Shown here piece by piece: positions 14,162 through 59,278 of a stretch of DNA of 64,000 nt. The notes beneath the pieces were generated by a model. The model had not been told where the DNA came from and ran no database searches. It worked only from the letters and a program-made list of their open reading frames with translations. How positions within the stretch are numbered: position 1 is the stretch's first letter; every line of letters starts with the position of its first letter. Where the stretch lies: the IMG/VR virus record IMGVR_UViG_3300029266_000805, positions 1 through 64,000 of that record, one strand, 5' to 3'. Source of the stretch: a virus. Both the position numbers and the translations under genes were made by a program.

Positions 14162-14163
14162 AC

Positions 14164-14847: not shown

Positions 14848-14879
14848 ATAATAAATTAATAATTAAAAAAAAGTAAATT

Positions 14880-15557: not shown

Positions 15558-15572
15558 TATAAATCAAAAGAT

Positions 15573-15606
15573 TGGGCTTAGTATAATGCTGAGCCCATTT
15601 CTTTTT
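15573..15606 (+). terminator. Intrinsic terminator after SSB-like gene
   Basis: TGGGCTTAG (15573-15581) pairs with CTGAGCCCA (15589-15597), nine pairs with one G-U, loop of 7 nt, followed by TTTCTTTTT. This is a textbook intrinsic terminator between the SSB-like gene and the primase gene. A -7-like TACTTTTG at 15609-15616 follows immediately but lacks a TTG at the right distance. Confidence 0.85.
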
Positions 15607-15620
15607 AATACTTTTGAATT

Positions 15621-16598: not shown

Positions 16599-16599
16599 C

Positions 16600-16992: not shown

Positions 16993-17291
16993 ATATTATA
17001 ACCTCAGAAGAGTTTTTTAAGTTGGTAAACATGTTTAATGGCTTACCAGATGATCAAGCTATGGCATGCGAGGTCTATAACAATAGTAATTTTGAAGACA
17101 AAGATGTCTTAGATTTATTAATGTGTAAAGCACTTATGTTTAGTAGCAGAAAATATTTTATAGATGCTATAAAAATGAAAATAAATATAGATAGTCTATA
17201 TACTAAAAACATATATACTTTTATTAAACCCAGTGTTGCACAAAATATATATATTAATATATTGGAAACAATAATAAATAATAAAGAATGA
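16989..17291 (+). CDS. Hypothetical protein
   Basis: A 100-residue helical protein (begins MNIITSEEFFKLVNMF) with ATGA overlaps at both ends (RusA upstream, the peptidase/VWA gene downstream). Its composition, with repeated acidic-aromatic helices, suggests a small all-alpha repeat fold. Family not recognised; tight coupling to the VWA/MoxR genes hints at a partner for that module. Confidence 0.65.
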   Translation: MNIITSEEFFKLVNMFNGLPDDQAMACEVYNNSNFEDKDVLDLLMCKALMFSSRKYFIDAIKMKINIDSLYTKNIYTFIKPSVAQNIYINILETIINNKE

Positions 17292-18451: not shown

Positions 18452-18457
18452 TAGAAA

Positions 18458-19729
18458 ATGGCACAAGTAAATTTAAATGTAACAGAGTTAAAAGGTTTTG
18501 TAAATCATATAATAAAGAACAATAGATTTCTACAAGATCAGGGTAAAAACTCTGTATCAGTAGAAGTTGTAGGTGAATCAGGTATTGGTAAAACATCTAC
18601 CATAGTTGAATTAGCACAAGATAATAATTTAAAATTTGTAAAACTAAACTTAGCACAGATAGAAGAGTTGGGTGATTTAGTTGGTTTTCCTGTACGTCAA
18701 TTTCAGATGTATAAAGAAAAAACTATACCAGCAAAAAGTATAGATGATTTGTCTATGGTAAGTGCAGTGCAAAGAGCAGGTAGCTCAAGTCTTGCTAATA
18801 TGCCTACTACAACTACCAAAAAAGTTGGTATGTGGGTAGATGAACTGGCTGTACAAGAATATCTAAAGAATGGATATAAGATGACCGGTAAGAATAGAAT
18901 GTCTTATTGTGCACCTGAATGGATTGCTGATGCAAAGGCCGGTGGTATCTTATTACTAGATGACTGGAACCGTGCTGATACAAGATTTATCCAAGCAGTT
19001 ATGGAATTGATAGATAGACAAACGTATATCTCTTGGACTCTTCCTAAAGACTGGCATATTATATTAACAGCTAACCCGGATAATGGTGACTATATGGTTA
19101 ACAGTGTAGATAGTGCACAGAAGACTAGATATGTAACTGCTAATCTTAAGTTTGATGTTAATGTATGGGCTGAGTGGGCAGAAGGTGCAGGTATAGATTC
19201 AAGATGTATTAACTTCTTGTTACTACACCCAGAACTAGTAACTCAACAAACTAATGCAAGATCAATTACAACTTTCTTTAATGCAATATCAAGCTATGAT
19301 AACTTTGAAGATAACCTTAGTATGATTCAGATGATTGGTGAAGGTAGTGTAGGTGATGAATTTGCATCTATGTTTACAACCTTCATTAATAATAAGCTAG
19401 ATAAATTAGTAAGTCCAAAGGATTTATTGACACATGATAATGAGTCATATATTCTTGGTGAACTTAGATCTTGTATTGGTCAAGATGACACATACCGTGC
19501 AGATATTGCTGCTACATTAGCAACAAGGCTTGGTAACTATGCTATAGTATATTCTAAAGAAAATACTATTGGACAGAAGCAAACTGATAGACTTACTTCT
19601 CTATGTACAAAAGATTATTTTACAAATGATCTTAAGTATTTAATAGTAAGAACAATCTTCAATGGTAATAAAAAGAAGTTTAACAAACTAATGATGATTC
19701 CAGATATCATTAAAATGACAATGAAATAA
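18458..19729 (+). CDS. MoxR-type AAA+ ATPase
   Basis: A 423-residue AAA+ protein with Walker A GESGIGKT (39-46), Walker B GILLLDDWNRAD (163-174) in the variant typical of MoxR/AAA_5 proteins, and sensor 1 LTANP near 203-207. MoxR ATPases act as chaperones that insert metal ions or remodel complexes, recognising clients through a VWA partner. The zincin-VWA gene is 6 nt upstream, forming the classic pair. What a phage uses this pair for is not established; remodelling of replication, transcription or host complexes is possible. Confidence 0.88.
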   Translation: MAQVNLNVTELKGFVNHIIKNNRFLQDQGKNSVSVEVVGESGIGKTSTIVELAQDNNLKFVKLNLAQIEELGDLVGFPVRQFQMYKEKTIPAKSIDDLSMVSAVQRAGSSSLANMPTTTTKKVGMWVDELAVQEYLKNGYKMTGKNRMSYCAPEWIADAKAGGILLLDDWNRADTRFIQAVMELIDRQTYISWTLPKDWHIILTANPDNGDYMVNSVDSAQKTRYVTANLKFDVNVWAEWAEGAGIDSRCINFLLLHPELVTQQTNARSITTFFNAISSYDNFEDNLSMIQMIGEGSVGDEFASMFTTFINNKLDKLVSPKDLLTHDNESYILGELRSCIGQDDTYRADIAATLATRLGNYAIVYSKENTIGQKQTDRLTSLCTKDYFTNDLKYLIVRTIFNGNKKKFNKLMMIPDIIKMTMK

Positions 19730-42200: not shown

Positions 42201-44947
42201 GCCATATCTTTAGTTTGTAAATCCATAGTGTCAATATCTTGAACACCATTACCTTCTATGATATCTATTAAATCTTGTTCACTAAATGCACTACCTACTC
42301 CACCAAAATCATTATTTGCATTTAGTCTTACTTGTTCAGTTACATAATTAGAAATTGCCTGATCAATAACACCAGATCCATCAGTAGTACTACCTGCAAG
42401 TTTATTTAAAGCAAGTTGTAGTGATAATAATAAAGATCTTTGTGTTGCATTAAGCTCTGATGTTTCTTCAACCGAATACAGACCCTGAAAGGTTTTTATA
42501 AACCTATCAAAATTATTTGCATATGTTATATACTCAGGTTTAGAAAAATTAGCGGGATCTTCAATATATTTTGTAAATTCTTTAATTTGTTTTATTGCAT
42601 CCATCATTAATGCTGAGTATGCTTGAGATCTAGATATAGGTCCTTCGCTAATAGCTATACCTATATAAGCCAAGTTACTTGCAATATCTTCTTTCATATC
42701 CTTCACACTACGGTCCATGAACACACTGCTGCGTACAGTATCCATAGCATCTCTTTTAGAAATTAAGCCTATTCTGTATGTCTCAAGTGCAGTAAGCACA
42801 GTATTATATTCAGGATAATTATTTAAATCTATATTATCTGCTTGTTCTTGATCATTTTCAAATTGTTCTTCTGCAACAAAAGGTGCATCATATTGATCCG
42901 CAACAGCTTCTTCAAGCTTTCTTGTTTTGTTTTCAGCACTTAATGACTCAGGTACAATCATATTTACCATGTCTTCGTTTTGCATAGGAGGATGATCAAC
43001 AAGACCATCTTCTTTTATGTTACCACCAAACTTTTGATCTTTACCTTTACCTGTAATATCTGCTACAAAGTGTACAGTTGCAGCTGCATAGTCACCTTGA
43101 TATACTTGATAACCCATGTTTTCAGCCATCCTTCTATAGATGTTTACCTGTAAATTATGTTGTTCTCTAGTAGATAATGCTTGAATTCCTAGTTGAAATA
43201 GTATACTGTCTGTACTTAAATCCCAAGATTTATCATATTTTTTAAGTGTTAGTGATCCACCCTTTGTAGGTCTAAAGTATCTAGATGAAATTGAGTTTTT
43301 ACTTGTCTTTAAATCTAATATTCTAACCTTACCGGTTTTGTCAATGATCATTAAATCAACTGTGCCTGCTGTTTTAGTTGCATCATCAAATAGAACTACC
43401 TGTGATAATGCTATAGAATCTTCAGGCATTAGAAATTTTAGAGCAGATTGTAATTGATTATATACTTGATTTGCAATTTCAGGAGTAAGTAAGTTTAAAC
43501 TAACTGTATCTAAAGATTCGCCAGCAATAAGAGCATCTAATAAAGCATCTACATCATTACCTACATCAAGATTCATCTGTACATCTTCTTGATTTTTTAG
43601 TTTACCTTTTATCTGTGTTGTGACAGAGTTATATTGCTCCCCCGTATTTATATTATAATATGTATGATCTTTTTCATTAAGAATAACAATTGATCCATCA
43701 GATGTATCTTTTAAATTTGCTGATAAAAAATCAACATCTGTTTCTGTTGTCTGTGCAACATGAAACATTTTATCTAGTATAATTTTTTGTACACCATTTG
43801 CTGAATTCCTTTGTATATCTAAAGCCTTTTTCTTTTGTGGAGAAAGGTTATATCTAATTTTACCATTTACCCTACTCTCTAATTTAAATTGTATACCTTC
43901 TGTATTTAAGAGTTTAGCAAGATCAGTAAAGTTAGTATCTGAGTTTATTGCAGATACTGGTACTTCTCTTCCTGTAAGATATTCATTTAAGTTATTTATG
44001 ACATTCATAAACCACTCTAATGCGTCCTTTATTAAATCTGAAAATCTACGTGTGGGTGTAGTTTCATATTCTTCTCTAAAATGTCTAGCTAATGCTTGTG
44101 TAACTATCTCTAAATCTCTATCTGTTTCACTAAAGCGTCTTTCTTTATTATATGAATCAGTGATTTCTTGTACCATCTCTGGAAAATTGATCCTAGCTTC
44201 AGCTAATAAATTATTAAACAAAGTATTATTATCTACTTTAATAGCATCTATAAATGGGTGTAGCATTTCCTCTATTGCTACTTCATTTGTTACTCTTCCT
44301 TTTATTAAGTATGCTGTACCATCCACATAAAAAGAGTTCATTTTATCAAAAGGAACATTGCTTTTTTTCCATGATGGCATTTCATTATACATAGCTTTAG
44401 CATCAGATATAGATAACATTTCAACATTAACTTGAGGAAACATTCTTTTAAGATGCATTACTACTGCTCTAGCTCTAGGAGTATCCCAAGCTCTTGATGA
44501 TTCAATCATATCTTTTGTTGTAAACATGTCTTCATTTACAGTTACTCTATATGATTGCGTTGTTCTTTCAATTGTTACTCTATTCTCTGGAATATTATTT
44601 ATAGATAAATACCTTTTAAGTCTTTTTAAATTACTGTTTAAATAAAACTCATCATACTGTTGAGTATTAGGATTTGAATTATTTATATAAAATTTATTTT
44701 GGAAACTATGCCCTATCCTTTCTCTTCGTAAATTATTTAATAAACTATCTGAAAAGTTTCTTTGTTTTAAAGAAAATAATAATTTCTGATTACTTACAAA
44801 TTCACTTGCTTCTAAAGCAGTAGGGAACGTATCTACATTATTAAGATCTTGCCATTGATTAATAACATTATTAGTGGCAATTTCTGTTTTATATACACCT
44901 TGCAATGCTTTATATTCAGCAGTATTTTTATTAGGACATCTAGCCAT
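39275..44947 (-). CDS. Giant virion-type protein with PD-(D/E)XK domain
   Basis: A 1890-residue soluble protein in the block that carries RNA polymerase in crAss-like phages. Near residues 200-320 is a zincin-like helical region with EEMLHPFIDAI where active peptidases have HExxH, so the first His is replaced by Glu and the site is probably inactive. A PD-(D/E)XK nuclease core follows: GTVDLMIID (Asp531) and ILDLKTSK (Asp545, Lys547). The rest is mostly helical with coiled-coil stretches. It is probably packaged and delivered with the DNA. It starts 3 nt after the 4775-residue gene, implying co-expression. Confidence 0.8.
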   Translation of the reverse strand: MARCPNKNTAEYKALQGVYKTEIATNNVINQWQDLNNVDTFPTALEASEFVSNQKLLFSLKQRNFSDSLLNNLRRERIGHSFQNKFYINNSNPNTQQYDEFYLNSNLKRLKRYLSINNIPENRVTIERTTQSYRVTVNEDMFTTKDMIESSRAWDTPRARAVVMHLKRMFPQVNVEMLSISDAKAMYNEMPSWKKSNVPFDKMNSFYVDGTAYLIKGRVTNEVAIEEMLHPFIDAIKVDNNTLFNNLLAEARINFPEMVQEITDSYNKERRFSETDRDLEIVTQALARHFREEYETTPTRRFSDLIKDALEWFMNVINNLNEYLTGREVPVSAINSDTNFTDLAKLLNTEGIQFKLESRVNGKIRYNLSPQKKKALDIQRNSANGVQKIILDKMFHVAQTTETDVDFLSANLKDTSDGSIVILNEKDHTYYNINTGEQYNSVTTQIKGKLKNQEDVQMNLDVGNDVDALLDALIAGESLDTVSLNLLTPEIANQVYNQLQSALKFLMPEDSIALSQVVLFDDATKTAGTVDLMIIDKTGKVRILDLKTSKNSISSRYFRPTKGGSLTLKKYDKSWDLSTDSILFQLGIQALSTREQHNLQVNIYRRMAENMGYQVYQGDYAAATVHFVADITGKGKDQKFGGNIKEDGLVDHPPMQNEDMVNMIVPESLSAENKTRKLEEAVADQYDAPFVAEEQFENDQEQADNIDLNNYPEYNTVLTALETYRIGLISKRDAMDTVRSSVFMDRSVKDMKEDIASNLAYIGIAISEGPISRSQAYSALMMDAIKQIKEFTKYIEDPANFSKPEYITYANNFDRFIKTFQGLYSVEETSELNATQRSLLLSLQLALNKLAGSTTDGSGVIDQAISNYVTEQVRLNANNDFGGVGSAFSEQDLIDIIEGNGVQDIDTMDLQTKDMATSPKVLLAVMDKLFKNKKQRLLDNIGQRNEIITKLANKVLRLSPTNDRQKIYDFMHEGDGEYVKVIGKQYRKIQEEIRNVLYDNDGKPYLYRDVTDLDSASQADIDYNIDVANKKRAFSDFFRAEIKDESGELVDGMYHRYTSDFIEERRRYEYWVPGTDKNPFGTWRRKDSRAVSDKEYSIYVAKYYESISYTKAQRDGQGNPTGAVVRGQDFKAVKEQFIETREVTADGRDMTSAKYRAIMNPTDALGQAQKEFYEMYVDVFENDLLKKLPLDYLTQMLGKTPLVKGNFINNLKEKPSWFSRAYAKTVGAEAWKMFQSTSQQRGVALDENGNLVSQLPIYYVGSARREGAIEELDKRISTLKDQKKKGLINISVYNTQLAELRGDRAKLVSQPTTGEISRDLGDSLMKFSAMAENYEVMGTIEDTLNAFVKVIEKREYQPADPTITTGTRIDGAFQKRGIIKGKDSNILRKANKWMSMTFYEEDTMSKGAVDKISDGLIQLSSLSYVAFNPFGNFNNYVIGRINNNIEMLGSRFFSKKAYRRATWEFNKRAVPDLVQRSSYVVGDLGDVLTFGLVKGAAASTYDAKKPNSKYEAFVDLFRMMDKMSDLREQTSDTSSGKSWFAKATEWGYILQDAAEYNVQTKVGMAILMDTQIKNKVTGETLSLYDAFQYNSTTHKNELKEGFDTVVKKNGTEIAYTDEFRYSLRNEIREVNKQIHGNYAKEDRVVMQSTTIGKLAFQFHKWVAPAIRARYQREYFDQNLGWMEGRYISAFKFLAYVKSEIVKGNKEFSTYNKGFLDAYGYTGEGGNLDQRATNKLYGFYRTMGEIGIMLSTFVLSQVLQGLLAGDDDDSDTTKRFKNILKYQADRTYKELVMFTLLPDGLTQQYQMFKSPIAATRTMGELGEALSMSLTTPLGYLYYSDEEFKSNSSFVYQQKPRKGQLKVYKNWKDVIPVLYSIQKYDAYLRMNNYFIK

Positions 44948-44950: not shown

Positions 44951-47900
44951 TTATAAATTACATTTTTTAATTTGGTCTATAAAACCTTCTTCATTTTCAT
45001 AGATACCATTATTATATTCTTCAATAAAGTCTTCCAAAGATAGGATATTATTTTCTCTGAGAGACGCCATTGCTTCTTTATTTCCTTGTATATTAGAATC
45101 CCAAAAATCTGTAAGCATAGGAAACTGCTCATCTAACTCCATTCCAAAATCTAAAGTTAACTGACTTTCAACTTCATCTACTTCAGGCAATGATGTGTCT
45201 ACATCATCAATAACGTTTGCTTCAAGTTCACTTTGATCTTGTGCTTCTTGATTTAAACCAAGCTGCTCCAATAGAAATGCTGTGTCAGCAACATTAGTCA
45301 TGGTTGCTTCAGGATCAAGTTGTACATCAATACTATTTTCAGTTGCTTCAATATTTACATTATCAGATTGTAATACCTCTTGTTGTACTGCAAAATCTGA
45401 TGGATCCATTGCAAAATCCATATATGGATCTTCTTGATTTTTTCCATTTTTAGAATTTACAAAAGCTCTTATTTCTTTATATGTAGGTCTAGGGCCAAAC
45501 ATAAAACCAATATGCGTTTGTTGATTAGAACCAAATGGATCTATTTCCTTATATGTTTTAGATTCTGAATCTAACTTATATGTTTTGATGACACCTTGTA
45601 CATCAACAACTCTAACATAGTTTGGTGTAGCATCTCTATCTAAAACAATTGAATTCCAATTTACTGTTACTTCATTGTCTTTTACCTGAACACCTGGTTG
45701 TAAACTTCCGGTTGTTAAAGATCTTTTAAAAGTCCAAAGTTTAGATCCATTAATATTAGACTCAAGAAAACCTTCTGTAAATTCTTTTGTTAACTCTTCT
45801 TTAGATAATCCAAATACAGACTCAAAAGAAACATCTCCTCTCACTGCTTTTTCAACAGTATTAATATGAGATAAAAATTTATTCATTGTAAATGGAGCAA
45901 TTGCTTCTAACAAACTACCATACCTCAATTGTAATCCATCTTTAACCATCATATAGTTAATTATTGTCTGAGCTTGATTTTTAGTATCTAAAGACCCATA
46001 TAGTTGTGCAAAACTATTTTGTAAATCTACTTTTTGAGGAGCGGATAAATTTCTAAATGTATTTGCCATTGCTATGTTAAGACCTGAATCATTACCTACA
46101 TCTGTTGCAGATTCTGGTATAACAAAATTATCAATAAAGAAATTTGATTCACCTTTTGATTCTAATACTTCTTTTATTTCATTTATAACATCTACAATAG
46201 ATCTATCTGAGTTTGGATATATTAAATCATTACTTAAGACTTTTTCATTTAATGTACCGTTTTGTAAAAGATTATACTGATAACCTTTTATATTTAAATA
46301 AGATAAAAGATCTAGTGCAATATTTTGAACATCTTCTGTTTTTAATGTTGTAGCCCTTGTGTCTATATTATCTACTACATTGTTTAATATATCTTGAAAA
46401 ACCGGAGCAGCAGATAAAAATGTTGCTGGTAATAAATAATCAGTAACTTGCTTAAACAATTTTAAATATGTACTATACCAAGTATTGCTATTATAAATTT
46501 TATTTAAATCTAATGGAGCATCTTCGCTAAGCAAATCTTGTATATCTTTTTTCTTATCTAATACAGTTGCAACATCTTTACCTAGACCTTTGGTAAGGCT
46601 AGTTGGTGCACCCATCTTATCTGTAAATTGTTTTAAATCCGCTAGTTGTTTAAAATCTTGTAGGATACTAATATTTACTTCATCAGTTACTTCACCTGGA
46701 AAATTAATAGCATCTAATAAAACTGCATTTGTTACTGATATTCCTCGTGGTAATGTACCTGTCTCTTTTTTTACTTTATCAATTAATCTGAAATATTCCT
46801 TTTCTACTAATGTATCAATACCCGGATCAAATTTATCTTTTTTGTTTAATGCTTGAGAATATAAATCTTGTATAACCGGATTATTTATTAATAATATAGA
46901 TGTTTTAATAGGTATACTTAATGAAGTCATCATTGATACTAAACCTAATGCATGTCTATTTAAACCTAACTTTGCAAACAAACGCTCCTTGGCATTATCT
47001 GTAGCCATAGTAATAAGAGAGGATATTGTATCTTGATTTCTTTGATCACCCTCATTCTTTTTCTCTGTAGTATATTTAAATGAATCATATGTTACCCCAT
47101 CTATGATAATTGGAGATTTCAAATCAATCTTATATTCAGTAAGCAAACTAAGATATAAGTTAGGTAATACAGCAGCTCCAATAGAAGCTCCTTTATTTGC
47201 TTTAAAAGCAAGTATTTTACCAACCAAGTCATCTACATCATTGTTTTCTTCTAACATTCTATTTTTAAATATATCAGAAACTTCTGCTAAATCTGCCAGT
47301 GTACTATTAAGTATATCCAAAGCAGCAGGAGAATAAGAAATAGGATTTTCACCAGATGCTACACTATCATTTCCAAGCAATGCATATTTATAATCTAGTA
47401 TTTTATTATTTAAAGGAGCAGCATATGGTTCTCCAAACTTAGCAACATATTCACCATACTGAGCTTTAGTAATAGGCAGGCCAAGTAATTGTAATGCTTT
47501 TACACCTGCCTCTTTTAATCCTGCATCTGTAACAATATTTTGTTTTGTTAAAAATTGATAGTATGCTTTTTCTTCAGATTCTGTAAGGCTATTTTCAATT
47601 TTAGCAGCATCTAAATTTTCATCATAAGTCAAATAGGCTTCAGAGTATATTGTTCCAGATTTATTTACATTAGCATTTATATATCTAATGTAATCTGAAT
47701 AATTTTCTTCAAGCTTATTTTTATTACCATACTCAAAAAACTCTCCATCTTTTACATAAAAGTCCTTAAACTGTGCAAAAACTTTATCAATATCAAAATC
47801 TGCACCAGATACCTCAACTAACTCTCTAGCAAACATTGCTGAAGAACCATAAAACACCGGCATGAAATCAACCCATTTAATATTCATTGCAGAATGATTA

Positions 47901-50900
47901 TCTTGAGATGGTATTCTTACACCAAACATTTTTGATATTGCTTCAGGCATAGTTGCTGAAGGTGTATTTTCAATTAAATCCATTACAGATTTATGGTGTG
48001 CTGGCATCATCATCTCAGTATACCTTTGACCTGTAGGTTCACCATTAGAGTCATATTCCATTATACCATGTCTCAATCTATCTAATACAACAACTCCTGC
48101 TGGGCCAATATTTTCTTGTGTTAATGAATCAATGTTAAATAAGTCATTTTCAGTTCCTTGCCAAGCAGCTCTTCTTATAATTTCAGATCTAATTGGTACT
48201 CCATCTTTAATTTCAAATACTCTTCTATAAACTTTATTTCCAAAGTCTGATACTAAAGTAAGTCCTAATCCAGGAGTTCTTTCTGAGAAAACCCCTTTAC
48301 TAAAATAAGATAAAAACAACTGTTCAAATTTTCTTACTATTATTTGATTGTTCAGATTATAATTTGGTATTCCTTCAGTCATAGAAAAGAACTCTAGTAT
48401 TTGACTGCTAGACTGAGAAGCCTTAAGACCACTTAATGCAAACTGTAAAAATGCAGCAAGTTTAGGTGTAATTTTACCAGAAGCTTGAGATATACTTAAC
48501 TCATCCATTGCATTTTCAAAACTAAATATCAAGTTCGTTTTATCATTAAATTTTAAAGTAACTCTTTGTGATATAGCTTTATTATATTCTGTTCTAATTT
48601 CCTTAACAGACATATTTAATGCTGGAACAAATTGTTTATCATTTTGTTCAGAAGTTAGTATCTGTTTTATTTGTGTAGGATCAATCTGCTCTAATTTATT
48701 AGATGGGTTTAATTGCTGAAGACCCATAAATCTTGCATCCAATGTAGTAACACCGTTAGTGAATGGATCTGTATTATCTAATTCTTCAAGTAAATTAACA
48801 CGTTGTTTCTTCATTTTAACTGCACTTAATGGCGCAGCAATTGCAATTGTTTCTTTTTCTTTCTCAATAGCTTCTAACTTCAATCTTAAATTATGAAGTG
48901 TTTCTTTTCCTGGTAGAGCAACCCAAGATTTTATATCATCATTCCATTCAGACGTATATTGCGGTGTTAATGTAAATGCAGACATTTTAAGAAATGTACT
49001 ACCATCACCATAAACAAGTTTTTTTGAATTTAATAAAGCTTGCATCTTAGCATACCCTTCTGGTGTAGCCTCATTTCCAAATACTGAATCAGAGGTTATT
49101 GTTTGACCAGCTTCAATTCTATTAATAAATTCTGCTTGAGCTGCAGATAACTTTCCAAAACCAAACCACATGTACCTAAATGCTTTTGTTGTAATATACA
49201 TTTGAGCATCAGCAAAATCAATCCCACTGTCTTGAGGCTCTGTTAATGTAACTAAGCTTATATCATCTACAGGATGTATTACTCCATGCTCTGGTGCTGT
49301 TATTGCTGAGTATGCGCTATAGTATGCACCATTCTGCATTTTAGCTCTTTTAATTTGATCTACTGAATCTTTTAAAGAAACAGCCTGATCACCTAAGAGA
49401 ATCTCATTTATAGAGTATGAATTTATAGCATCATTAAAGAATATCTGTTTAAGGTTGTGCCTAAAGTTATTATTAAGATTCAGTAATGAAGCTGATTGTA
49501 CAAGAGCTCCTCTACTAACTCCAGCTGCTATAACGGGACCATTCTTAACTTGATTAGATATTTGATCTTCTATTTTTAATTCATCTATTAACTGTTCAAA
49601 TACTTGAAAACGGCTTTCTAAATTATCAACTAAATTATTTCGTAATGCTGTCATTCCTGATACTTCATCAGTAACCTCACTAGTTTGTTGTGTAACTGTT
49701 CCTGCTAAAGCATCATCAAGAGTTATAATATTACCTGCTTTACCAGCTTTGATTGCTGCGTTAATAAGAAAGGTCTGTTGTTCCACAGACATTAATGTCT
49801 TAGTATTAAAGAATGTAAGTGCTCTTCCGTCTGTATATCCTAATATATCTTCTTGAGTCTTTGTTATATCATTTGCTTCTCTGTTTATTCTAGCAAACTC
49901 AGTTCTAATTTTATCTATATATATATCTACAGCCTCTTCAGTTAAAACAGCTTCACCATTAACCATTTCTACAGTCTTAATTACAGGTAATGCAGCCATA
50001 TCACCTGTATTAGATGCTTCCATTACTCTTATAAGTATTGGTGCTAATGCTGAAATAATTTTATTACCTTCTCTATCTAAACTCTCTACTCTAGATACCT
50101 TATAACTTTTAGAATTTAAAAGAGCCCCATAATTATTTATTAAGTTAAGAGCAAACTCTTGTGGAGTAAAGTCACCATATGTTGAGGTTTGTTTAATACC
50201 CTGTAAACCATCATTTAATTCTTCTTCTGTAGATATTAAATCTCCTATCTTATTTCCTGCTACTCTTATTACTTGCAATCTTGATTCTAATGATAACTGT
50301 TTGAAAGCAGAACTATTCAATAAATAGTTATTTGCTAAATATGGATCAGACTCAAGAAGGTCTACTAAAGCTTCAGGGTTGTTTAACTGAGCAATCTTTT
50401 TTAAATGATATGTAGGTAATTGATGTGCATAAATTAAATCCCCATTAGGATTTTTAAATACAGATGCTCCAATTGTTTCATCAAATGGTGCATTAGCTAT
50501 AGACATATTTTTTAATCTACTGTCCATACCATCTTTACCAACAGAAAATATATCTTCATTAGATTGTATCAACTGATTCATTAAAGCTATAGAGCTTTCT
50601 TTGTAAGCTGATCCATCTAAATCATGTGTCAGTGCTGCACTTTCATTTTTATTTAATTTTAGAAAAACGCTTTGGTCTTCCTTTAAATTAGTTCTGTTAT
50701 ACAGCATACTATACTGAAGAAATAATGGGCTAATCTTAATACCAGAAAGCTCAAATAATTCTTGTGAATATTTCTTAGAATCTTTTTTAAGTTTAGCACT
50801 TGTAATTGCTTTATCTGTAGGTAAAATATCCTTTTGTATTTGTGAAAGTAAATTTATTAGTAAATCCTTTCTCTTAGGATCAATGATTAATTGTTTTCTT

Positions 50901-53900
50901 TTACTTATAAAACCTTGGTTCCATCTATCCAATTGAGAATTTACATCATCTCTTTCAGATGCAGAGTATACTATAGTATTACCAGCATTATCTCTTTCAT
51001 TAAATAAATAATCTACCCTAAAGTTTTCAAAACCTTTAAGTATAGATTGAAATAAAAGAGGAGATTGTATTTCAGTAGGTATACCATTATCTTTTAATAA
51101 CTGTTCTTTGGTTATTCCAACATCATTTAAAATTCTTTGTACTATAGCTCCAGTTTCTGAATTGTCTTGCCCAAAGAAATACATACTTTGAAGTATCTGT
51201 TTAGGGTCAGTTAAATTCTTTACAGCTTTTAATAAACCATTATATGCTTCTACAAAATCAACAGCTATTATTAATGGCTCACCATTTGTTAATTCTACAT
51301 TTCCAAAGTAATCTGTTGCTTCTACAGAAGTTGTTGCAATATAAGCTCTAAGTTGACTAGATAGAGATCTAAAACCACCAATCATTGATGCATCCTTTTC
51401 ATACTCTGTTGTAGATCTTATACCCGTTGCGTCTTCAAATTCTTCTACTTCATATCGTTCATTATCTGATTTGTCACTTATTTGATTTATGTATGCTATA
51501 CTTTGTTCTCTTATTGTGGCACTATAATTATCAAACGCTGATTGTATTTCATTTAACTTCACCTTCTGCAGATCAGTCTTATTTTCATTAATTGGATTAT
51601 CAATACTGTATAACCATTCAAAGTCATCCAATACAGAATCCATTTGATTTTTAGGGTTATAAGATTCTGTTAATTTAGATACACGTTGTAAAAACATAGC
51701 TGATATATTTCTGACTAATGGATCTGCTATATCACTTTCTAAATAAATAAATCCTAAATTTCCTTTCTCAGTTATTGAGTTATAAGGTATTAATGCATTT
51801 GCTTCTATTGTAGCTCCAACGTTTAATGCTGTAGTAAATTCATTATTTGCTATTTGTGCTCCTTTAAATTTACCACTATCAATATTTTCAAATAGAGTAC
51901 GCAATTCATTTTTTGAATATGAATTAAATACAGACTGAATCCAATCTAGAATTCTAGTAAATAAAGATTTAACACTTGCATCAGTATTGGTATTCTTAGG
52001 GTTTATTTTAAACTTGTTAAATTCATCTGCTAGATATTCTTCATAGTATTGATTCTCTAGTTCTTGCCTAGTCATGTTACTATATGTATCTGCAGAGTTT
52101 TTAAATTTCTGTAGTTCTTTCTCAAAGCTTTTTCCTTCAGCTCTAAGTTTAGCTCTTACTTCTTTTCTAGCAATATTTCTATATCTTTTTATTTCTTCAT
52201 CACTAAGTAGCATTCTAAATACACCGTGAAAAGCTTCATGATATTTATAAGGAGAAAGTGCACCAGTATAAATAGTTCCAGATACCTTTTGTCCACCAGC
52301 CACATGATTTAACCCTAATACAAAGGCACCAACACGTACACCCCCTGCTTTTAAATTATTACCTAATGTAGTTATATCAGATATATTCATATAACCAGGT
52401 AAGTTGTTTGCAGCCCAATCAGTAAAGACATCTATATCCTCTACATCTGTCAAACTAAAATCAGAAGAAGACATAATTTTATTAGCTTCTTTTTCAATTG
52501 CTTTTCTTTGAGCTAATAATTTTTGATACTCTTCACTTGTTCTAAGAGTCTTACCTCTATCTTTAGGTGCTACACCCTCTAATAGCTGCGTCTTAACAGT
52601 TTCAAGTTGTTGTTTTATATCTTCAAGATTATTGATTTGTTGTGTTGCTGGCTGCTTACCGTCTCTAAACATTTGCCAGCTAGATTTATTATTTCCAACT
52701 TGTGGAATACTATCATCTAATCTATCTTGAATATAGTCAACTATGATACCCATTTTGTCCATAGTAAAATCATAGTTCTTGTTTATTCTATTCAGAACCA
52801 TTTGTCTACCTACTTCTTGTGTTATCTTTCCGTTCTTTATGCTTTTCTCTATTATCTTTATGTAATTCTCTATAGAGTTATCTTCTTCAGCTTTTGCTTC
52901 TTTACCATAATATATGGTACTACCATCCACGTCTTTATTTTTAGTCTTAGTTCCAAGAGGTTGTGTACTATTACCTCTACTTGCAGCACGTTTTGCTTCA
53001 TATAACTTAGTAATAAGACTCTGGAATTTAGCTCTATCTTTATCAGCAACCTCTGATGTAACAGGATCTCTTAAAGCTTGAATCTGTTCCTCAATAGTAG
53101 ATACAGCATCATCAAACTTTTGATTTGGATTAGATGTTGAAACTTGCTCACTAGTGTTAAGTCCTAAGAAATTTTGAGCTTTAACTCCTAATTGATTTAA
53201 TACAGCGTCTATTTCCTTCTGAGAAGTAGCAAGACCATTCATTTGGTTAGGTACTCCTTCAAACTTACCAATTAAAAAGAATTTTACAGATCCATCTGGA
53301 CTTGTTGCTTTTATTATCTCGGATCCATTTTCATTGTTTTTAATTATTTGATTTACAATACCTCCTTTTATGTTCTTTTGTTCAAAAGTATAAATACCTT
53401 CTACCCTAGAAAAAGCTTCAACCCCACTAGTTTGTTGTAAACCTTCTCCACCTCTTTGAGATACCATTACATTAATAGTAGCAGCTCTCATATTATAAAC
53501 TTCTACTTCTCTTGATGTTAAATTATCTACACCCTCTTTAACAATTTTATTTGCTATATGGTTAATAAATTCAGAAGGGAGTGTAAGGAAATCTTTAGCT
53601 GCAAATTCAGCAAATGCGAGATCACTTAAGTCTAATAAACTAAACTCTGCTTCTTCTGAAGTAAAATTAGATTCATCTATTTCAGTATTTTCTACTACAT
53701 CTTCTTTTATATTACCCTTATCTATTTCAGCTTGAATAGCAGAAGACTCACCTGTAGCTCTAGCAGAACTATTTAATACTACTTCAGGTCTTACATTAGT
53801 TGTTGTTAAATCAATAATTTCATTAGCAGATGTTGCTGTAGGAAAAGATTCTCTAAAGTTCTTATTTGATAAAGTAACTTTTGTTGCTTTAATGTCGGCA

Positions 53901-56900
53901 TCATTATTAAAATCTTTTATTAATGACTGTATAAATCCAGTAGCAGAATTTTGATTTACAAAAGATGTACTATTTGCAGCAGGTATATCTATTGTAATGG
54001 TTTGACCTACTTGTTTAGAAGTATTTTTATCAAATAATTGTAACTGCAATTTACCCCACGGAGAAACTTGCAATGAAATATTATAATCAGAATTACTTGA
54101 AATAAAAACTTTATCTGGTACAGTAGTATCATTGAAATCTCTATTATAAGCTTCATCTTTTACTTTACCATCTTTATCTAGATTTTCCTTTTTTGTTTTC
54201 TGTGCACGCTCTACAAGATCAACAGCTAAAGAACCTCTTTGATCTTTAGTTAATGAACGTGCTTTTAAATTAATAGGTCTGTAAGATCCATCTGGTAATT
54301 GAACTATAGCCACATACCTATCTGAACCAGTTATTATATTATCCCACATCAAATCCTTTTGTAATCTGGACTTTATTTTATTATATAGTTTAACATTTTC
54401 TTCTGCTGTAGTAATATATTCTATTGTTCTTGACCCTTTTTTTCTCTTTAAATCAAATATAAAGTAGCTTCCATTTTCATCAGCATGCTCATAACGTAAA
54501 TCTTTTAAAGATCTTGTATTACTATTATCAATAGATCTACCACCCTTTTGTGTTATAAAGTTTAAACCAAAAGGTAATTGATTTATTCCAATCACAGATT
54601 TTGGATTACTATCTGCATAAGCAAGTAACAATGCATTAAGTGCAAAATTATTTCTTACTAATTCTAAAGTTTGTTTTTGATCTAATGTAGCCTTAAGTTC
54701 AGGGCTTACAAAAATACTATTAAGAGCTTGTTCTCTTGACATATTAGCTAAAGAAGTAACGTCTTTTATTTGTATGTTACCATTAGGAATATATGCAAAT
54801 ATCCCATCTGCATTATCTGTGATAGGTACACCATTATCTTTTAATATTTTATTAATTCTATTTTTTATCTTCCCGTTAGGAATAGAAAGCCCTATGCTAT
54901 ACTTAGATTGTACTATAGTAACATATGGGTTTTGTTCTTTACCTTTTATAACATAATTTCCAATATTGTTACCACCCTCATTATTAACATTTATAACAAG
55001 TTCTAAAGTATTAATCTCTTCTTGAGTTAAATTATCTAGTATAATATTTAATCTATCATCCGCACCTTCATAATCTCTTTTACCATTTTCATCTGTATTA
55101 GCATGTGGATATACTTTATTAATATCAGTTATATTTACTCTAGCTACATTTGACGGTAGCAGATCAAATTTTATTTCTTGTGTAGTATATGAATTTTTAA
55201 ATTGACCAGATTGTAATGTTACAGGTTTGCCCTCAAAATTATTAGGAACTAAACGCAGGTTTCCTCCTTGTACAAATTTTGGTGTACTTATAACTCTATA
55301 TTCTTTACCATCACTATCATAAACCAATTGTCCCTGAAATAACATTACTCCATCAAAAGGAAAAGGAGTACTATCTGGAGCACGCTTATCTAACTTTCTC
55401 ATACTTGCAATAGCAGTACCAGAATTATTAAATGCATTACGGGTAATTCCTATTTGTAATAATAATTCTGGAGATACATTATTTCCATTTTTATCAACTA
55501 ATTTAAAAAATGCTTCAACTTCACCCTGAGAATTGAATGTTGTTATTTTTAATACATCTACTATAGTCCCCTCCTGAAAAACTCTAGGTTTTGGTGGATT
55601 AGCAGGATCTATATTATCTTCATCATCTTCATTTGCAACTTTAGGTGTAACAAGAGTAGGATCAGATTTAACTGGCTCAGTATAATACATTTCATTTAAT
55701 GGAATACCCGCTGCTTGAAGTATATCTCTTACTAAAGGATTTTCTAAAACCTCTCTGCTTCTCAACCATTGATCAAAACCTGCTTCTGCTTTTATGTCTG
55801 CATCTGATAACTCAGTAAATATAGGATTACCTTTAGCATCCATAACAGGTAGCTTACCAGATATCCATAGTTTCTTTAATGCATTAAATGAATTTTGCCA
55901 GTTTAGACCTTCTGTATTTCTCCATTCCTCAAAAGTCTTAACTGTCTCACCAAGTACTGTCTGTGTTCCTGAATACTTTCTGTATTGTCTGTCCAATAAT
56001 TTTTGTAATAATATACTATTATTTGCATCAGGTAATATAACATCTATATTTGCGTCTTCTAAAATTTCATCTTGATTATTTTTTGTCTCCTTTACTTCAA
56101 CATCTTTACCCTTTTCTTCAGTTGTGTCTGTTGACTCATCAGTTTTTTCTGACATACTTCTGTACGTCTCAAGAAGTCTTTGGATTTGATCATACTTTAC
56201 TTTATCTAAGTTAGGATCTATATCTCCCTGGTCATCATAAAAATTCTTTAATTCATTTACATTACCAGAAATTAGAAACTTCTTAACTTGTTCAGGATCA
56301 CCAACATAACCAGCTTCAAATAACTTATTCATTAATACATTAGCTTCTTTTATATTAATGTATTTTTCTATTTGTTGTTTATGTATTTTACTAAGGTTCT
56401 TATATATATTTTTATTAACCTCTATCTGTCTATCTACAATATCACTAAGCCTTTGTGGATTATTTAAATACTCAATAGCTTTATCATATACTTTAGCTCT
56501 ACCATTTAATGCTTTGTAATCTACTATTTCTTTAAGCGCATCTTGCATTTTTGATCTATCAACAAATGAATTAGTTGAATTTGCCATAAACTGCACATAC
56601 TTTTCAAAAGCAGATGTTAATTTATTTATTTTTCTTCTATCAAATGAACCATCCTTAGTTAGGTTTTTTGGATCATTTAATATTTTTTCAATAGCACTAA
56701 GATTTTTTATTTTGTTTGTTGCTTTTTCTATAGCTTTTTTTCCTTCACTTGTTTCTTTATCTTGAACTGCAATATCTTGTAGTAATAATCCTATTTCATT
56801 ATTTATAGAGTCTATATCTAATAATACTGTAATATCATTAGCTGCCATTCCTTCAAATAATGGCTCATTACTCAACTTAGTATAAATACCAAGTTGTCTT

Positions 56901-59278
56901 TCTGTTGCACGTTTAAACCCGTCTTCAGTAAACATTTGAAGATATGTAATATGTTCAAAAGCTTTTTCTTTAATAGCTTCAAGAATATATGCTCTAGAAC
57001 CCTTATCATATTGTGTTCTATCATAAGGATTTGTAAATTTATCTTTATTTTTCTCAAAACTAAGTTCAAATTTATCTAGGTTATTGATCATCTTCTGAAG
57101 TCTTTCCCTAGCTTTACCATTTTTAATATCACTTTTTGGACCAGGAAACGCTTGTCCTAATTCTTCATCACTCATTTGCATAAAATCTGTAAGCTGAGTT
57201 CTAAAATAATTAGATGTTCCGTTTGAAAAAATTGTATAAAGCTGTTGAAACTTTCCAAAATCTTTTTCATCTGTAAAACCAAATCTATCTTGAGCAAAAG
57301 CATTTTCCTTCATTGCTCCAGCAACTTGTTTTTGAATTTTAAAGTTTAATTCATTTAGGTCAAACAAAGAAGAAGGATTATCAACTGAACTATTCCATGC
57401 TTCATTATGTACTTTAACTAAATCCTTTACATAATTCTTCTTTGTTTCTTGATATTCTTTAAATGCCTTTGGATCACTAATTCTATTATATAAAGCCGGC
57501 ATTCCTTGAAATACTAGTTTTTGAGGTCCTTGTACAATTCCCCCCATTAAAAATCCAGATAGGAATGTCTCTACACCTTGTCCACTAAATTGAGAGCCCA
57601 TACCAGCACGTATCATATCATTTTGTAATGCTATTCCACCTGATAACGGATCTTCCATTACAGTAGTATAGTAACCTTTAGTACCTACAGCAATAGCTTC
57701 TTGTCCTATTTCTTGTAAACCCTCAGCTACATTCGCTGCAAAGTATCTTGCTGTTGCTGATATAGCCATTCCGGTATTACCTTTAATTCCACCAGCTTTT
57801 ACTTTAGTCCACCAACCTCTAATCCCAGGTCCCGCATCTTCAAATACATCTTTGATTTTACCAGTAACAGCATCTTTTACACCTTTACCTTTAAACAATC
57901 TTCCGTTTAAACCTTTTTTAAATGTATCATTAAAAACTCTACCTAATGATCTATTAAATCCACCCATTGCATTTCCTAATACAATCTGATTACTTAGAAA
58001 AATTAATGGAGCATTAGTCATTGTAGTATAAAAAGCACCTTCTCCTGCTTGAGATTGTATAAGTGCCATTTGTTCAGGTGTAACATTACCTGTTTTTTTC
58101 TTTTGTATATCTACCCCTTCTCTTACAAGTTCATTGTAGACCATACCACCTTCAAGCTTACTTTCAGCTAATGCTAAATTTACTGCTCTAAAGTCTCTAT
58201 AAAATCCACCAAATCCTGCTTTTGCTTTTGCTAAATTGTTTGCATTTTGTGTAGCATTTTTAGCAGTCTTAAAGTTTTTAAGTGCAGAATAAGTTTGTGG
58301 TGTTAATATATTACCAACTACTTTAGTACCAGACTTTGCTGCTGCCCAGAAAGATTTAGCTGCATCATAATTTTTTAATTGATTAAGCAATGCTCTTGTG
58401 CTAGCCTGCATATTTTTTATATTAAAAAAGTTTTTTGCACCTTTTACAATTCTACCAGCATTTTGTGCTGTTCTTACTGCAGCAAGCCCACTTGTAGCAC
58501 CACCAGAAAGATATGTTGCACCAGCAAGTATCAATTCTTCTACAGCAATAGATCCAATTATACCAAATGTATAACCACTATTTAAAAGTAAATTATTTGT
58601 AAAAGCTAATGCACCGCCTCTTGTTGAATTACCAATAGCCATAGCATCTTCAAACTCCATTGCAGAATCAATATCTGGTGCAGAAAAATATGCATCATCA
58701 TCAAACATGTCTCCTAAAGATCTATATACACTTGAAAATCCAGAACCTACTAAACTACTAAACTCACCACGCATTCTAGACATATCATCCCAAATTGTAG
58801 AGTTTGCATTATAGTATCCTTCCATATCAGCATAGGGTGTAAAACCTAGCTGAGCAAAATCAGGATGCTCATAGTATCTCATAAAATTACTTTGTCTAAT
58901 ATTTGCAAAACGTTTATCTACAACGTCTGCAGCAGGTCCTTTAGACTCAGCCTTTAAAATTTTAGAAACAGTATTATATGTATCTTGAGGAGGATTTTGT
59001 TGAGCAACTGGATCAAATGTACCAGTAGCTAAAGTTGGTCTTGCTACACCTAAACTTGCCATAGCAGGTATACCATATCTATCTATAGCTGATTTATATG
59101 CACCAACATTAGCAATTGCACCAGGATCAGTAGCTAATACATCAGCTATCTGAGTTTCTGGCCCATCAAACATTTCTTCAATAGGTATAAAGTTAAATCC
59201 ATCAGTTGGAATTACAGATTCTTGTCTTTGATTACTATTTACAGCATTTGTCAAAGATGTATTCGCTTGATTCTCCAT
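44951..59278 (-). CDS. Giant multi-domain virion RNA polymerase
   Basis: A 4775-residue protein. N-terminal third: helical with apolar stretches (about 225-275 and 415-435) and VAEGLQEIGQEAIAVG, typical of large polyvalent phage proteins. Middle: zincin YHEAFHGVF (HEAFH 2347-2351) with a downstream EEYLADEF (2413-2420) as third-ligand region. C-terminal third: RNA polymerase with KGVFSERTPG (about 3665), VRIPSQDNHS (about 3785) and the catalytic DFDID (Asp 3827, 3829, 3831), in the order R-x-P then DFDGD of beta-prime subunits. Homologous crAss-like RNA polymerases are virion-packaged single-chain enzymes that transcribe early genes. The peptidase could free the polymerase. Its size is exceptional. 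Confidence 0.9.
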   Translation of the reverse strand: MENQANTSLTNAVNSNQRQESVIPTDGFNFIPIEEMFDGPETQIADVLATDPGAIANVGAYKSAIDRYGIPAMASLGVARPTLATGTFDPVAQQNPPQDTYNTVSKILKAESKGPAADVVDKRFANIRQSNFMRYYEHPDFAQLGFTPYADMEGYYNANSTIWDDMSRMRGEFSSLVGSGFSSVYRSLGDMFDDDAYFSAPDIDSAMEFEDAMAIGNSTRGGALAFTNNLLLNSGYTFGIIGSIAVEELILAGATYLSGGATSGLAAVRTAQNAGRIVKGAKNFFNIKNMQASTRALLNQLKNYDAAKSFWAAAKSGTKVVGNILTPQTYSALKNFKTAKNATQNANNLAKAKAGFGGFYRDFRAVNLALAESKLEGGMVYNELVREGVDIQKKKTGNVTPEQMALIQSQAGEGAFYTTMTNAPLIFLSNQIVLGNAMGGFNRSLGRVFNDTFKKGLNGRLFKGKGVKDAVTGKIKDVFEDAGPGIRGWWTKVKAGGIKGNTGMAISATARYFAANVAEGLQEIGQEAIAVGTKGYYTTVMEDPLSGGIALQNDMIRAGMGSQFSGQGVETFLSGFLMGGIVQGPQKLVFQGMPALYNRISDPKAFKEYQETKKNYVKDLVKVHNEAWNSSVDNPSSLFDLNELNFKIQKQVAGAMKENAFAQDRFGFTDEKDFGKFQQLYTIFSNGTSNYFRTQLTDFMQMSDEELGQAFPGPKSDIKNGKARERLQKMINNLDKFELSFEKNKDKFTNPYDRTQYDKGSRAYILEAIKEKAFEHITYLQMFTEDGFKRATERQLGIYTKLSNEPLFEGMAANDITVLLDIDSINNEIGLLLQDIAVQDKETSEGKKAIEKATNKIKNLSAIEKILNDPKNLTKDGSFDRRKINKLTSAFEKYVQFMANSTNSFVDRSKMQDALKEIVDYKALNGRAKVYDKAIEYLNNPQRLSDIVDRQIEVNKNIYKNLSKIHKQQIEKYINIKEANVLMNKLFEAGYVGDPEQVKKFLISGNVNELKNFYDDQGDIDPNLDKVKYDQIQRLLETYRSMSEKTDESTDTTEEKGKDVEVKETKNNQDEILEDANIDVILPDANNSILLQKLLDRQYRKYSGTQTVLGETVKTFEEWRNTEGLNWQNSFNALKKLWISGKLPVMDAKGNPIFTELSDADIKAEAGFDQWLRSREVLENPLVRDILQAAGIPLNEMYYTEPVKSDPTLVTPKVANEDDEDNIDPANPPKPRVFQEGTIVDVLKITTFNSQGEVEAFFKLVDKNGNNVSPELLLQIGITRNAFNNSGTAIASMRKLDKRAPDSTPFPFDGVMLFQGQLVYDSDGKEYRVISTPKFVQGGNLRLVPNNFEGKPVTLQSGQFKNSYTTQEIKFDLLPSNVARVNITDINKVYPHANTDENGKRDYEGADDRLNIILDNLTQEEINTLELVINVNNEGGNNIGNYVIKGKEQNPYVTIVQSKYSIGLSIPNGKIKNRINKILKDNGVPITDNADGIFAYIPNGNIQIKDVTSLANMSREQALNSIFVSPELKATLDQKQTLELVRNNFALNALLLAYADSNPKSVIGINQLPFGLNFITQKGGRSIDNSNTRSLKDLRYEHADENGSYFIFDLKRKKGSRTIEYITTAEENVKLYNKIKSRLQKDLMWDNIITGSDRYVAIVQLPDGSYRPINLKARSLTKDQRGSLAVDLVERAQKTKKENLDKDGKVKDEAYNRDFNDTTVPDKVFISSNSDYNISLQVSPWGKLQLQLFDKNTSKQVGQTITIDIPAANSTSFVNQNSATGFIQSLIKDFNNDADIKATKVTLSNKNFRESFPTATSANEIIDLTTTNVRPEVVLNSSARATGESSAIQAEIDKGNIKEDVVENTEIDESNFTSEEAEFSLLDLSDLAFAEFAAKDFLTLPSEFINHIANKIVKEGVDNLTSREVEVYNMRAATINVMVSQRGGEGLQQTSGVEAFSRVEGIYTFEQKNIKGGIVNQIIKNNENGSEIIKATSPDGSVKFFLIGKFEGVPNQMNGLATSQKEIDAVLNQLGVKAQNFLGLNTSEQVSTSNPNQKFDDAVSTIEEQIQALRDPVTSEVADKDRAKFQSLITKLYEAKRAASRGNSTQPLGTKTKNKDVDGSTIYYGKEAKAEEDNSIENYIKIIEKSIKNGKITQEVGRQMVLNRINKNYDFTMDKMGIIVDYIQDRLDDSIPQVGNNKSSWQMFRDGKQPATQQINNLEDIKQQLETVKTQLLEGVAPKDRGKTLRTSEEYQKLLAQRKAIEKEANKIMSSSDFSLTDVEDIDVFTDWAANNLPGYMNISDITTLGNNLKAGGVRVGAFVLGLNHVAGGQKVSGTIYTGALSPYKYHEAFHGVFRMLLSDEEIKRYRNIARKEVRAKLRAEGKSFEKELQKFKNSADTYSNMTRQELENQYYEEYLADEFNKFKINPKNTNTDASVKSLFTRILDWIQSVFNSYSKNELRTLFENIDSGKFKGAQIANNEFTTALNVGATIEANALIPYNSITEKGNLGFIYLESDIADPLVRNISAMFLQRVSKLTESYNPKNQMDSVLDDFEWLYSIDNPINENKTDLQKVKLNEIQSAFDNYSATIREQSIAYINQISDKSDNERYEVEEFEDATGIRSTTEYEKDASMIGGFRSLSSQLRAYIATTSVEATDYFGNVELTNGEPLIIAVDFVEAYNGLLKAVKNLTDPKQILQSMYFFGQDNSETGAIVQRILNDVGITKEQLLKDNGIPTEIQSPLLFQSILKGFENFRVDYLFNERDNAGNTIVYSASERDDVNSQLDRWNQGFISKRKQLIIDPKRKDLLINLLSQIQKDILPTDKAITSAKLKKDSKKYSQELFELSGIKISPLFLQYSMLYNRTNLKEDQSVFLKLNKNESAALTHDLDGSAYKESSIALMNQLIQSNEDIFSVGKDGMDSRLKNMSIANAPFDETIGASVFKNPNGDLIYAHQLPTYHLKKIAQLNNPEALVDLLESDPYLANNYLLNSSAFKQLSLESRLQVIRVAGNKIGDLISTEEELNDGLQGIKQTSTYGDFTPQEFALNLINNYGALLNSKSYKVSRVESLDREGNKIISALAPILIRVMEASNTGDMAALPVIKTVEMVNGEAVLTEEAVDIYIDKIRTEFARINREANDITKTQEDILGYTDGRALTFFNTKTLMSVEQQTFLINAAIKAGKAGNIITLDDALAGTVTQQTSEVTDEVSGMTALRNNLVDNLESRFQVFEQLIDELKIEDQISNQVKNGPVIAAGVSRGALVQSASLLNLNNNFRHNLKQIFFNDAINSYSINEILLGDQAVSLKDSVDQIKRAKMQNGAYYSAYSAITAPEHGVIHPVDDISLVTLTEPQDSGIDFADAQMYITTKAFRYMWFGFGKLSAAQAEFINRIEAGQTITSDSVFGNEATPEGYAKMQALLNSKKLVYGDGSTFLKMSAFTLTPQYTSEWNDDIKSWVALPGKETLHNLRLKLEAIEKEKETIAIAAPLSAVKMKKQRVNLLEELDNTDPFTNGVTTLDARFMGLQQLNPSNKLEQIDPTQIKQILTSEQNDKQFVPALNMSVKEIRTEYNKAISQRVTLKFNDKTNLIFSFENAMDELSISQASGKITPKLAAFLQFALSGLKASQSSSQILEFFSMTEGIPNYNLNNQIIVRKFEQLFLSYFSKGVFSERTPGLGLTLVSDFGNKVYRRVFEIKDGVPIRSEIIRRAAWQGTENDLFNIDSLTQENIGPAGVVVLDRLRHGIMEYDSNGEPTGQRYTEMMMPAHHKSVMDLIENTPSATMPEAISKMFGVRIPSQDNHSAMNIKWVDFMPVFYGSSAMFARELVEVSGADFDIDKVFAQFKDFYVKDGEFFEYGNKNKLEENYSDYIRYINANVNKSGTIYSEAYLTYDENLDAAKIENSLTESEEKAYYQFLTKQNIVTDAGLKEAGVKALQLLGLPITKAQYGEYVAKFGEPYAAPLNNKILDYKYALLGNDSVASGENPISYSPAALDILNSTLADLAEVSDIFKNRMLEENNDVDDLVGKILAFKANKGASIGAAVLPNLYLSLLTEYKIDLKSPIIIDGVTYDSFKYTTEKKNEGDQRNQDTISSLITMATDNAKERLFAKLGLNRHALGLVSMMTSLSIPIKTSILLINNPVIQDLYSQALNKKDKFDPGIDTLVEKEYFRLIDKVKKETGTLPRGISVTNAVLLDAINFPGEVTDEVNISILQDFKQLADLKQFTDKMGAPTSLTKGLGKDVATVLDKKKDIQDLLSEDAPLDLNKIYNSNTWYSTYLKLFKQVTDYLLPATFLSAAPVFQDILNNVVDNIDTRATTLKTEDVQNIALDLLSYLNIKGYQYNLLQNGTLNEKVLSNDLIYPNSDRSIVDVINEIKEVLESKGESNFFIDNFVIPESATDVGNDSGLNIAMANTFRNLSAPQKVDLQNSFAQLYGSLDTKNQAQTIINYMMVKDGLQLRYGSLLEAIAPFTMNKFLSHINTVEKAVRGDVSFESVFGLSKEELTKEFTEGFLESNINGSKLWTFKRSLTTGSLQPGVQVKDNEVTVNWNSIVLDRDATPNYVRVVDVQGVIKTYKLDSESKTYKEIDPFGSNQQTHIGFMFGPRPTYKEIRAFVNSKNGKNQEDPYMDFAMDPSDFAVQQEVLQSDNVNIEATENSIDVQLDPEATMTNVADTAFLLEQLGLNQEAQDQSELEANVIDDVDTSLPEVDEVESQLTLDFGMELDEQFPMLTDFWDSNIQGNKEAMASLRENNILSLEDFIEEYNNGIYENEEGFIDQIKKCNL

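Follow-up and report, generated by a model that had tools for sequence, protein, structure and literature searches.

A single open reading frame of more than 14 kb that joins a peptidase-like site to an RNA polymerase centre raises the question of what the peptidase is doing there, and in particular whether it cuts its own chain to release the polymerase, as an earlier note on this DNA proposed. The frame lies in a window of 64,000 nucleotides (the whole stretch of DNA analysed here) that comes from an IMG/VR contig of 68,905 bp. It is a real open reading frame, and it runs on the minus strand, from 59278 to 44951; the earlier note had given no strand. It has an ATG start, a TAA stop and no internal stop in 4775 codons, and the plus strand across the same span is full of stops. 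Close relatives (79-100% identity) and dozens of others at 30-60% keep this frame open, which puts it far beyond chance. The features of the locus are listed in Table 1. We use Z for the zincin-bearing RNAP-associated protein, R for the RNAP catalytic subunit and C for the third subunit, with joined letters for fused chains and a stroke for a break between chains.

Table 1. Coordinates, in the window, of the features of the polymerase locus. Residue numbers are those of the chain in which the feature lies.
Feature	Position	Strand	Remarks
ZR chain (zincin-bearing RNAP-associated protein + catalytic subunit, crAss-type virion RNA polymerase)	44951..59278	(-)	4775 aa
N-terminal module, residues 1-1950	53429..59278	(-)	collinear, low-probability HHalign matches to the crAssphage gp45 N-terminus
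Weak hydrophobic stretch, residues about 235-258	58505..58576	(-)	the only one of the N-terminal module
Insert, residues 1951-2205	52664..53428	(-)	part up to 2175 found in 3-13% of relatives
Zincin-like (HExxH...E) domain, residues 2280-2480	51839..52441	(-)	homologue: crAss001 gp47 (C-terminal part)
HEAFH, residues 2347-2351	52226..52240	(-)	both His predicted to bind zinc; Glu catalytic
Glu 2414, predicted third zinc ligand	52037..52039	(-)	invariant in 93 sequences
Insertion-tolerant linker, residues about 3165-3202	49673..49786	(-)	before the RNAP core
RNAP core, residues 3200-4775	44954..49681	(-)	homologous to phi14:2 gp66, crAss001 gp50, crAssphage gp44
DFDID catalytic motif, residues 3827-3831	47786..47800	(-)	
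Cys 4773 codon	44960..44962	(-)	sole cysteine of the 4775-aa ZR chain
C subunit, 1890 aa	39275..44947	(-)	crAss001 gp49 (E 9e-30), phi14:2 g65, C-terminal part of crAssphage gp44
Cys 4 codon	44936..44938	(-)	no other cysteine in the C subunit; would pair with Cys 4773 in a disulfide
Exonuclease-like domain in C subunit, residues 414-613	43109..43708	(-)	phrog_298, E 1e-12
Upstream neighbour, 1081 aa	59287..62532	(-)	zero cysteine

Sequence searches of Pfam, PHROGs and the PDB with the whole chain gave chance-level matches only. Judged from the homology of its parts, the chain is two crAss-phage virion proteins joined, Z (crAss001 gp47) and R (crAss001 gp50, phi14:2 gp66). Residues 2320-2475 align with the zincin region at the C-terminus of crAss001 gp47 (BLASTP E 6e-6; HHalign 1e-8, 96%), and residues 3578-3887 match crAssphage gp44, a Rudgehvirus RNAP, crAss001 gp50 and phi14:2 gp66 (BLASTP, E 1e-10 to 1e-12). 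The polymerase centre was correctly recognised from the motif at 3827: in a comparison with the phi14:2 virion RNAP the two proved homologous, the family profile matching the phi14:2 polymerase (PDB 6VR4) at E 2.4e-6 over a region that spans DFDID, so that the DxDxD catalytic motif lies inside homologous sequence, as in the phi14:2 gp66 RNAP family. Both phi14:2 gp66 and crAss001 gp50 share the RNAP core and its DFDID with the chain described here and have the same neighbour subunits. However, in those two phages the RNAP is a separate chain and Z, R and C are three genes, whereas here the polymerase is fused behind the zincin protein. The crAssphage counterpart of Z, gp45, is an HExxH protein that occupies the same genomic position before R, is weakly similar in its N-terminal part, and is annotated as a "putative RNAP associated protein fused to zincin protease". 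The exonuclease-like domain resides in the C subunit here and in the zincin protein gp47 of crAss001, indicating that this domain changed chains.

The homologues of this polymerase in crAss phages are virion proteins (PMC6235969, PMC10172136; phi14:2 record), and by analogy we infer that the ZR protein is packed in the capsid and injected as part of a crAss-type virion RNA polymerase. The window record itself has no structural block, and the assignment of the group to crAss-like phages comes from its relatives: in the near-identical contig L008 (G001), TerL, portal and major capsid protein match those of phi14:2 (E 4.9e-14, 5.5e-19 and 6e-8, respectively) within about 7.5 kb, and the same three proteins of most other relatives also match phi14:2 and are clustered.

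To see how widely the fusion occurs, IMG/VR was scanned with three query families and iterated profiles, which yielded at least 204 loci with an R segment; as the best 80 matches were kept per scan, the sample leans toward the clade of the window. The earlier note had stated that these functions are often spread over separate genes in crAss-like phages, which holds for many of them, but the fused form is also common: HExxH and DFDID stand on one chain in at least 111 measured chains, with a median spacing of 1485 aa. These chains, together with deposited Suoliviridae sequences, rule out that the fusion is unique to this phage. The commonest state is that of the window, ZR|C (at least 96 loci); RC with Z upstream and R|C with Z separate or on the opposite strand also occur, as does a rare single ZRC chain. 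In crAss001, Z ends 185 aa past HExxH and R starts 1482 aa before DFDID, which shows that ZR is close to a plain concatenation of the two. The Suoliviridae (delta group) phages cr1_1 and cr4_1, although very divergent in sequence and deposited as hypothetical proteins, have the same fusion state, with HEAFH and DFD(I/V)D in one chain and C separate; in cr1_1 a chain of 4551 aa carries HEAFH at 2001 and DFDVD at 3445 and is followed by a C of 2007 aa. A tree built from 134 R segments places the window, with full support, inside a clade of 48 rows that are all ZR, and the ZR state changes about 5-7 times in all. One further candidate, L014, which looked like a polymerase core swapped onto another N-terminal half, was rejected as a probable assembly chimera and excluded from all counts, since two further assemblies of the phage behind it (L107/L109 and L108) agree with L014/L106 (IMGVR_UViG_3300024221_000011) at more than 99.9% up to L106:14672 and depart from it beyond that point. 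In L223 (cr4_1, Suoliviridae; 453-19341), the ZR and C frames contain 38 and 18 in-frame stops, respectively, under table 11, which is consistent with stop-codon reassignment.

The peptidase site reported in the earlier note stood up well. An alignment of 93 sequences, fused and split forms alike, has just four invariant columns: H2347, E2348, H2351 and E2414. These are the residues that an HExxH...E zincin would use to bind zinc and for catalysis, which is strong evidence from sequence for a conserved zincin active site in Z. A peptidase fold around 2347 was not confirmed: two AlphaFold models of the region (pLDDT 74.9 and 70.4, the second made from an alignment without the L027 row) found no match at E <= 0.001 in three Foldseek searches of the PDB and BFVD, and the region has no significant match to the zincin families of Pfam. 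If the internal zincin cut the 4775-aa chain, whether inside the virion or once injected, and so freed the polymerase, then the invariance of its active site and the presence of an insertion-tolerant linker directly before the RNAP core would both make sense, and there is precedent in that phage P1 DdrB, which has a similar domain, is processed; processing has been proposed for giant injected proteins, and self-processing was already discussed for the giant injected RNAP of N4 by Iyer et al. 2017 (PMC5512222). We nonetheless consider self-cleavage distinctly improbable. The ligands H, H and E are just as well preserved in phages that encode Z and R separately (crAss001 and its relatives), and split forms such as crAss001 gp47 have nothing in cis to cut. 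Conversely, HExxH is absent from the proteins at the Z position in phi14:2 (g67) and DAC17 (DAC17_56), although the phi14:2 RNAP is functional (PMC10136315). A zincin that is kept outside the polymerase chain and lost elsewhere is hard to reconcile with self-cleavage as its chief function, though some cutting once the chain is injected may still occur. Nor does the protein look like a self-processing polyprotein, given that the peptidase is retained in a separate Z and that no conserved cleavage site was found in the variable linkers. Finally, the N4 vRNAP, which has such a metallopeptidase domain, is packaged unprocessed (PMC5512222).

The zincin is probably an active peptidase with a separate task. 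One candidate task, which we put forward tentatively, is that of an effector, injected to cleave a host protein or to aid passage through the envelope and unrelated to processing of its own chain. In favour of this, the active-site residues are conserved in fused and free Z alike; on the other hand, we know of no substrate, the zincin has been lost in some lineages (phi14:2, DAC17), and the models are without a fold match. An effector role is among the options listed for such domains (PMC5512222), and metallopeptidase domains recur in giant injected proteins of unrelated phages. The N4 vRNAP (Schitoviridae) resembles the present chain in being an injected RNAP of giant size that carries a metallopeptidase domain (PMC5512222) but is of the T7-like single-subunit type and forms one chain, and P23-45 gp96 is a 5,002-aa virion protein with a two-barrel RNAP, a metallopeptidase and membrane parts (PMC10770324) that differs in having its RNAP at the N-terminus and in being the tape measure of a long tail.

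A feature that sets the polymerase chains apart is the position of their cysteines. The sole cysteine of ZR and the sole cysteine of C face each other across the break between the two chains (Table 1). The same arrangement is found at the breaks of the split forms. In phi14:2 the only cysteines are residue 1797 of 1797 in g67 (Z), residues 3 and 2179 of 2180 in g66 (R), which therefore has one at each end, and residue 3 in g65 (C). In crAss001 they are residue 2339 of 2341 in gp47 (Z), residues 5, 1334 and 2404 of 2412 in gp50 (R), and residue 5 in gp49 (C). Separate Z proteins such as crAssphage gp45 and crAss001 gp47 end in a terminal cysteine, whereas the fused ZR chain has none at that point. 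In cr1_1 and cr4_1 the cysteines are at the same two ends as in the window phage.

We scored this pattern over non-redundant chains, counting a cysteine as terminal when it lay within the last or first 12 residues and taking the first Met of each open reading frame as its start. A C-terminal cysteine was present in 12/13 Z, 43/46 R and 84/86 ZR chains, so that C-termini upstream of a break carry one in 139/145 cases as compared with 0/148 for outer C-termini (Fisher p about 2e-77, with rows treated as independent and kinship ignored). An N-terminal cysteine was found in 114/117 C, 28/32 RC and 31/38 R chains (173/187 N-termini that follow a break), as opposed to 0/3 Z and 3/29 ZR chains, outer N-termini being mostly without one. 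The cysteine typically stands a few residues from the upstream C-terminus and within about 3-8 residues of the downstream N-terminus. Both partners have it in all 73 ZR|C and all 36 R|C neighbour pairs, and neither has it in the 8 pairs formed by ZR and the gene upstream. At the Z/R junction, 69/70 fused chains lack a cysteine and 55/59 broken ones have it. The three ZR chains with an N-terminal cysteine (L111, L120 and L178) led the rule to predict a further break upstream, and each of them has an extra chain directly upstream whose sole cysteine is residue 1371/1371, 1257/1257 or 668/669, respectively. By the same logic the 1081-aa upstream neighbour in the window, being without cysteine, would lie outside the stapled chain. 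Cysteines therefore occupy both sides of each break and are absent from fused junctions and outer ends, with few exceptions. These are L146, L067/L215 and L183, in which the upstream cysteine lies 31 residues before the chain end; several others come from wrong start codons (L024, L081) or frameshifts (L029, L187). L067 (14028-15875) and L215 (15561-17774), which belong to different clades, have a gene starting M...IE.EGGE between R and C, and the end of R is altered in both.

The rule also applies in Suoliviridae, Crevaviridae (Z ending ...KIC, RC starting MNYC), DAC17 and a Leptolyngbya cyanophage. Three well-supported independent changes of fusion state were identified, all of them accompanied by a change in cysteine; a tree-based test alone is not significant because independent fusion and fission events are few (3-5). 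Elsewhere in the chains cysteine is scarce. ZR chains of the window clade have 0.04 Cys per 1000 aa, as opposed to 3.6 in other open reading frames of the loci, and 66/72 of them have no internal cysteine at all; the replication proteins of the window mostly have 4-23. In several lineages, R and RC chains contain about 2 internal cysteines per 1000 aa. The cysteine rule is well supported at the level of sequence and seems undescribed in the literature consulted. No mention of terminal cysteines or disulfides of crAss RNAPs was found in the literature searched, which did not include key structural and genomic papers from 2018-2021, and an earlier mention is possible.

What could account for such a pattern? 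A by-product of features of gene ends at the DNA level, such as overlapping start and stop signals or recoding, or the scars of old inteins, might be considered, as many of these genes are neighbours separated by short spacers. This appears very improbable. In crAss001-type phages Z is encoded on the opposite strand and still keeps its C-terminal cysteine, as R keeps its N-terminal one, which rules out recoding or frameshifting as the cause. In addition, spacers and flanking residues vary while the cysteines are conserved across families at about 20-25% identity, and unrelated neighbouring genes carry both cysteines in only 3/107 control pairs. It is also unlikely, though less so, that the cysteines are unpaired and that each end docks to another partner (a portal or cargo protein, a shared zinc or a lipid-like modification) as a tag for packaging or assembly. 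That they lie near rather than at the ends, with variable flanks, would suit a docking tag, and we know of no packaging signals for crassvirus cargo. However, a tag would be expected on outer ends and on single chains too, and the C-termini of C (0/113), RC (0/33) and ZRC (0/2) lack it, while neither L218 (4982 aa) nor L137 (5646 aa), in which the chain is unbroken, contains a cysteine. Moreover, the cysteines occur on both sides of each break, including the new breaks upstream of ZR.

Given the homologies, the fusion states and the cysteine rule, we think it likely that Z, R and C make up a single thread of about 5,000-6,700 aa whose segments are joined either by a peptide bond or by a disulfide between a pair of cysteines, injected together and freed by reduction. 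In the window phage, the partners would be Cys 4773 of ZR and Cys 4 of the 1890-aa C subunit, and such a pair most likely forms an end-to-end inter-chain disulfide in the virion in place of the peptide bond of the fused forms. The subunits would then be drawn through the narrow tail as a single thread in a fixed order, the reducing cytoplasm of the host would open the disulfides, and the polymerase would refold and transcribe early genes; Z and R of ZR forms would remain joined unless cut by the zincin or a host protease. Loss of the other cysteines would avoid wrong bonds. Cysteine pairs that flank the chain breaks look like tethers, as if selection keeps Z, R and C together, which is a further point against self-cleavage; an effector role for the zincin, by contrast, is compatible with a disulfide-linked thread and does not compete with it.

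Several properties of crAss001 bear on this proposal. Its tail narrows to less than 50 angstrom, such that the cargo must pass partly unfolded, and the order in which the cargo exits has been proposed to be set by how the proteins are packed and by their interactions with one another (PMC10172136). Inter-subunit disulfides are seen by cryo-EM in the tail and in the gp57 dimer (PMC10172136), indicating that disulfides do form in such virions, and the cargo proteins are unresolved in that structure (PMC10172136). The crAss001 gel of 2018 was run under reducing conditions and so has no bearing either way on inter-chain disulfides. The hosts of the gut relatives are anaerobes, which counts against the model as far as the timing of bond formation is concerned. 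No phage thioredoxin was recognised in the window. In L019, L020, L026 and L027, genes annotated as thioredoxin-like or as thiol-disulfide isomerases are close to the polymerase block.

On balance we lean toward viewing the polymerase as a disulfide-coupled polypeptide train, in which inter-chain disulfides at the exact ends replace peptide bonds, so that subunits translated separately would enter the capsid, and later the host cell, as one thread and be released there by reduction. If this is true, gene fusion and gene fission would be interchangeable, with cysteine purged from the rest of the chains. In crAss-like phages, the most abundant phages of the gut, the conserved feature to which attention shifts is then the linkage of the chains rather than the zincin. 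How very large polymerase subunits pass a channel of less than 50 angstrom in order and in equal number is an open question (PMC10172136). The cysteine rule offers a concrete answer in that it names the peptides expected to be cross-linked, fused relatives needing none. It also provides a sequence signature for finding and ordering chains in unannotated genomes, as with the three extra chains predicted here. If the same device operates in a cyanophage block as well, it would be a general one not limited to crAss-like phages. In L225 (PP438436, Leptolyngbya phage Lbo-JY46; 6084-18990), a 1552-aa chain has Cys 1552 only and the 2748-aa chain that follows it has Cys 4 only; Lbo-JY46 is a cyanophage that has not been placed in Crassvirales and carries a homologue of the C domain.

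The long helical, partly apolar N-terminal part described in the earlier note was weakly borne out, in that the module has one hydrophobic stretch with a peak Kyte-Doolittle value of 1.47. Downstream of it, the part of the insert that covers residues 1951-2175 (52754-53428) looks mobile from its sequence, because it is rare in relatives and because L108, which belongs to a different crAss-like lineage, has a segment with 72% identity to residues 1948-2040. The linker before the RNAP core is an insertion hot spot, at which L018 (about 4654-8345) has about 1230 extra aa with two additional HExxH motifs.
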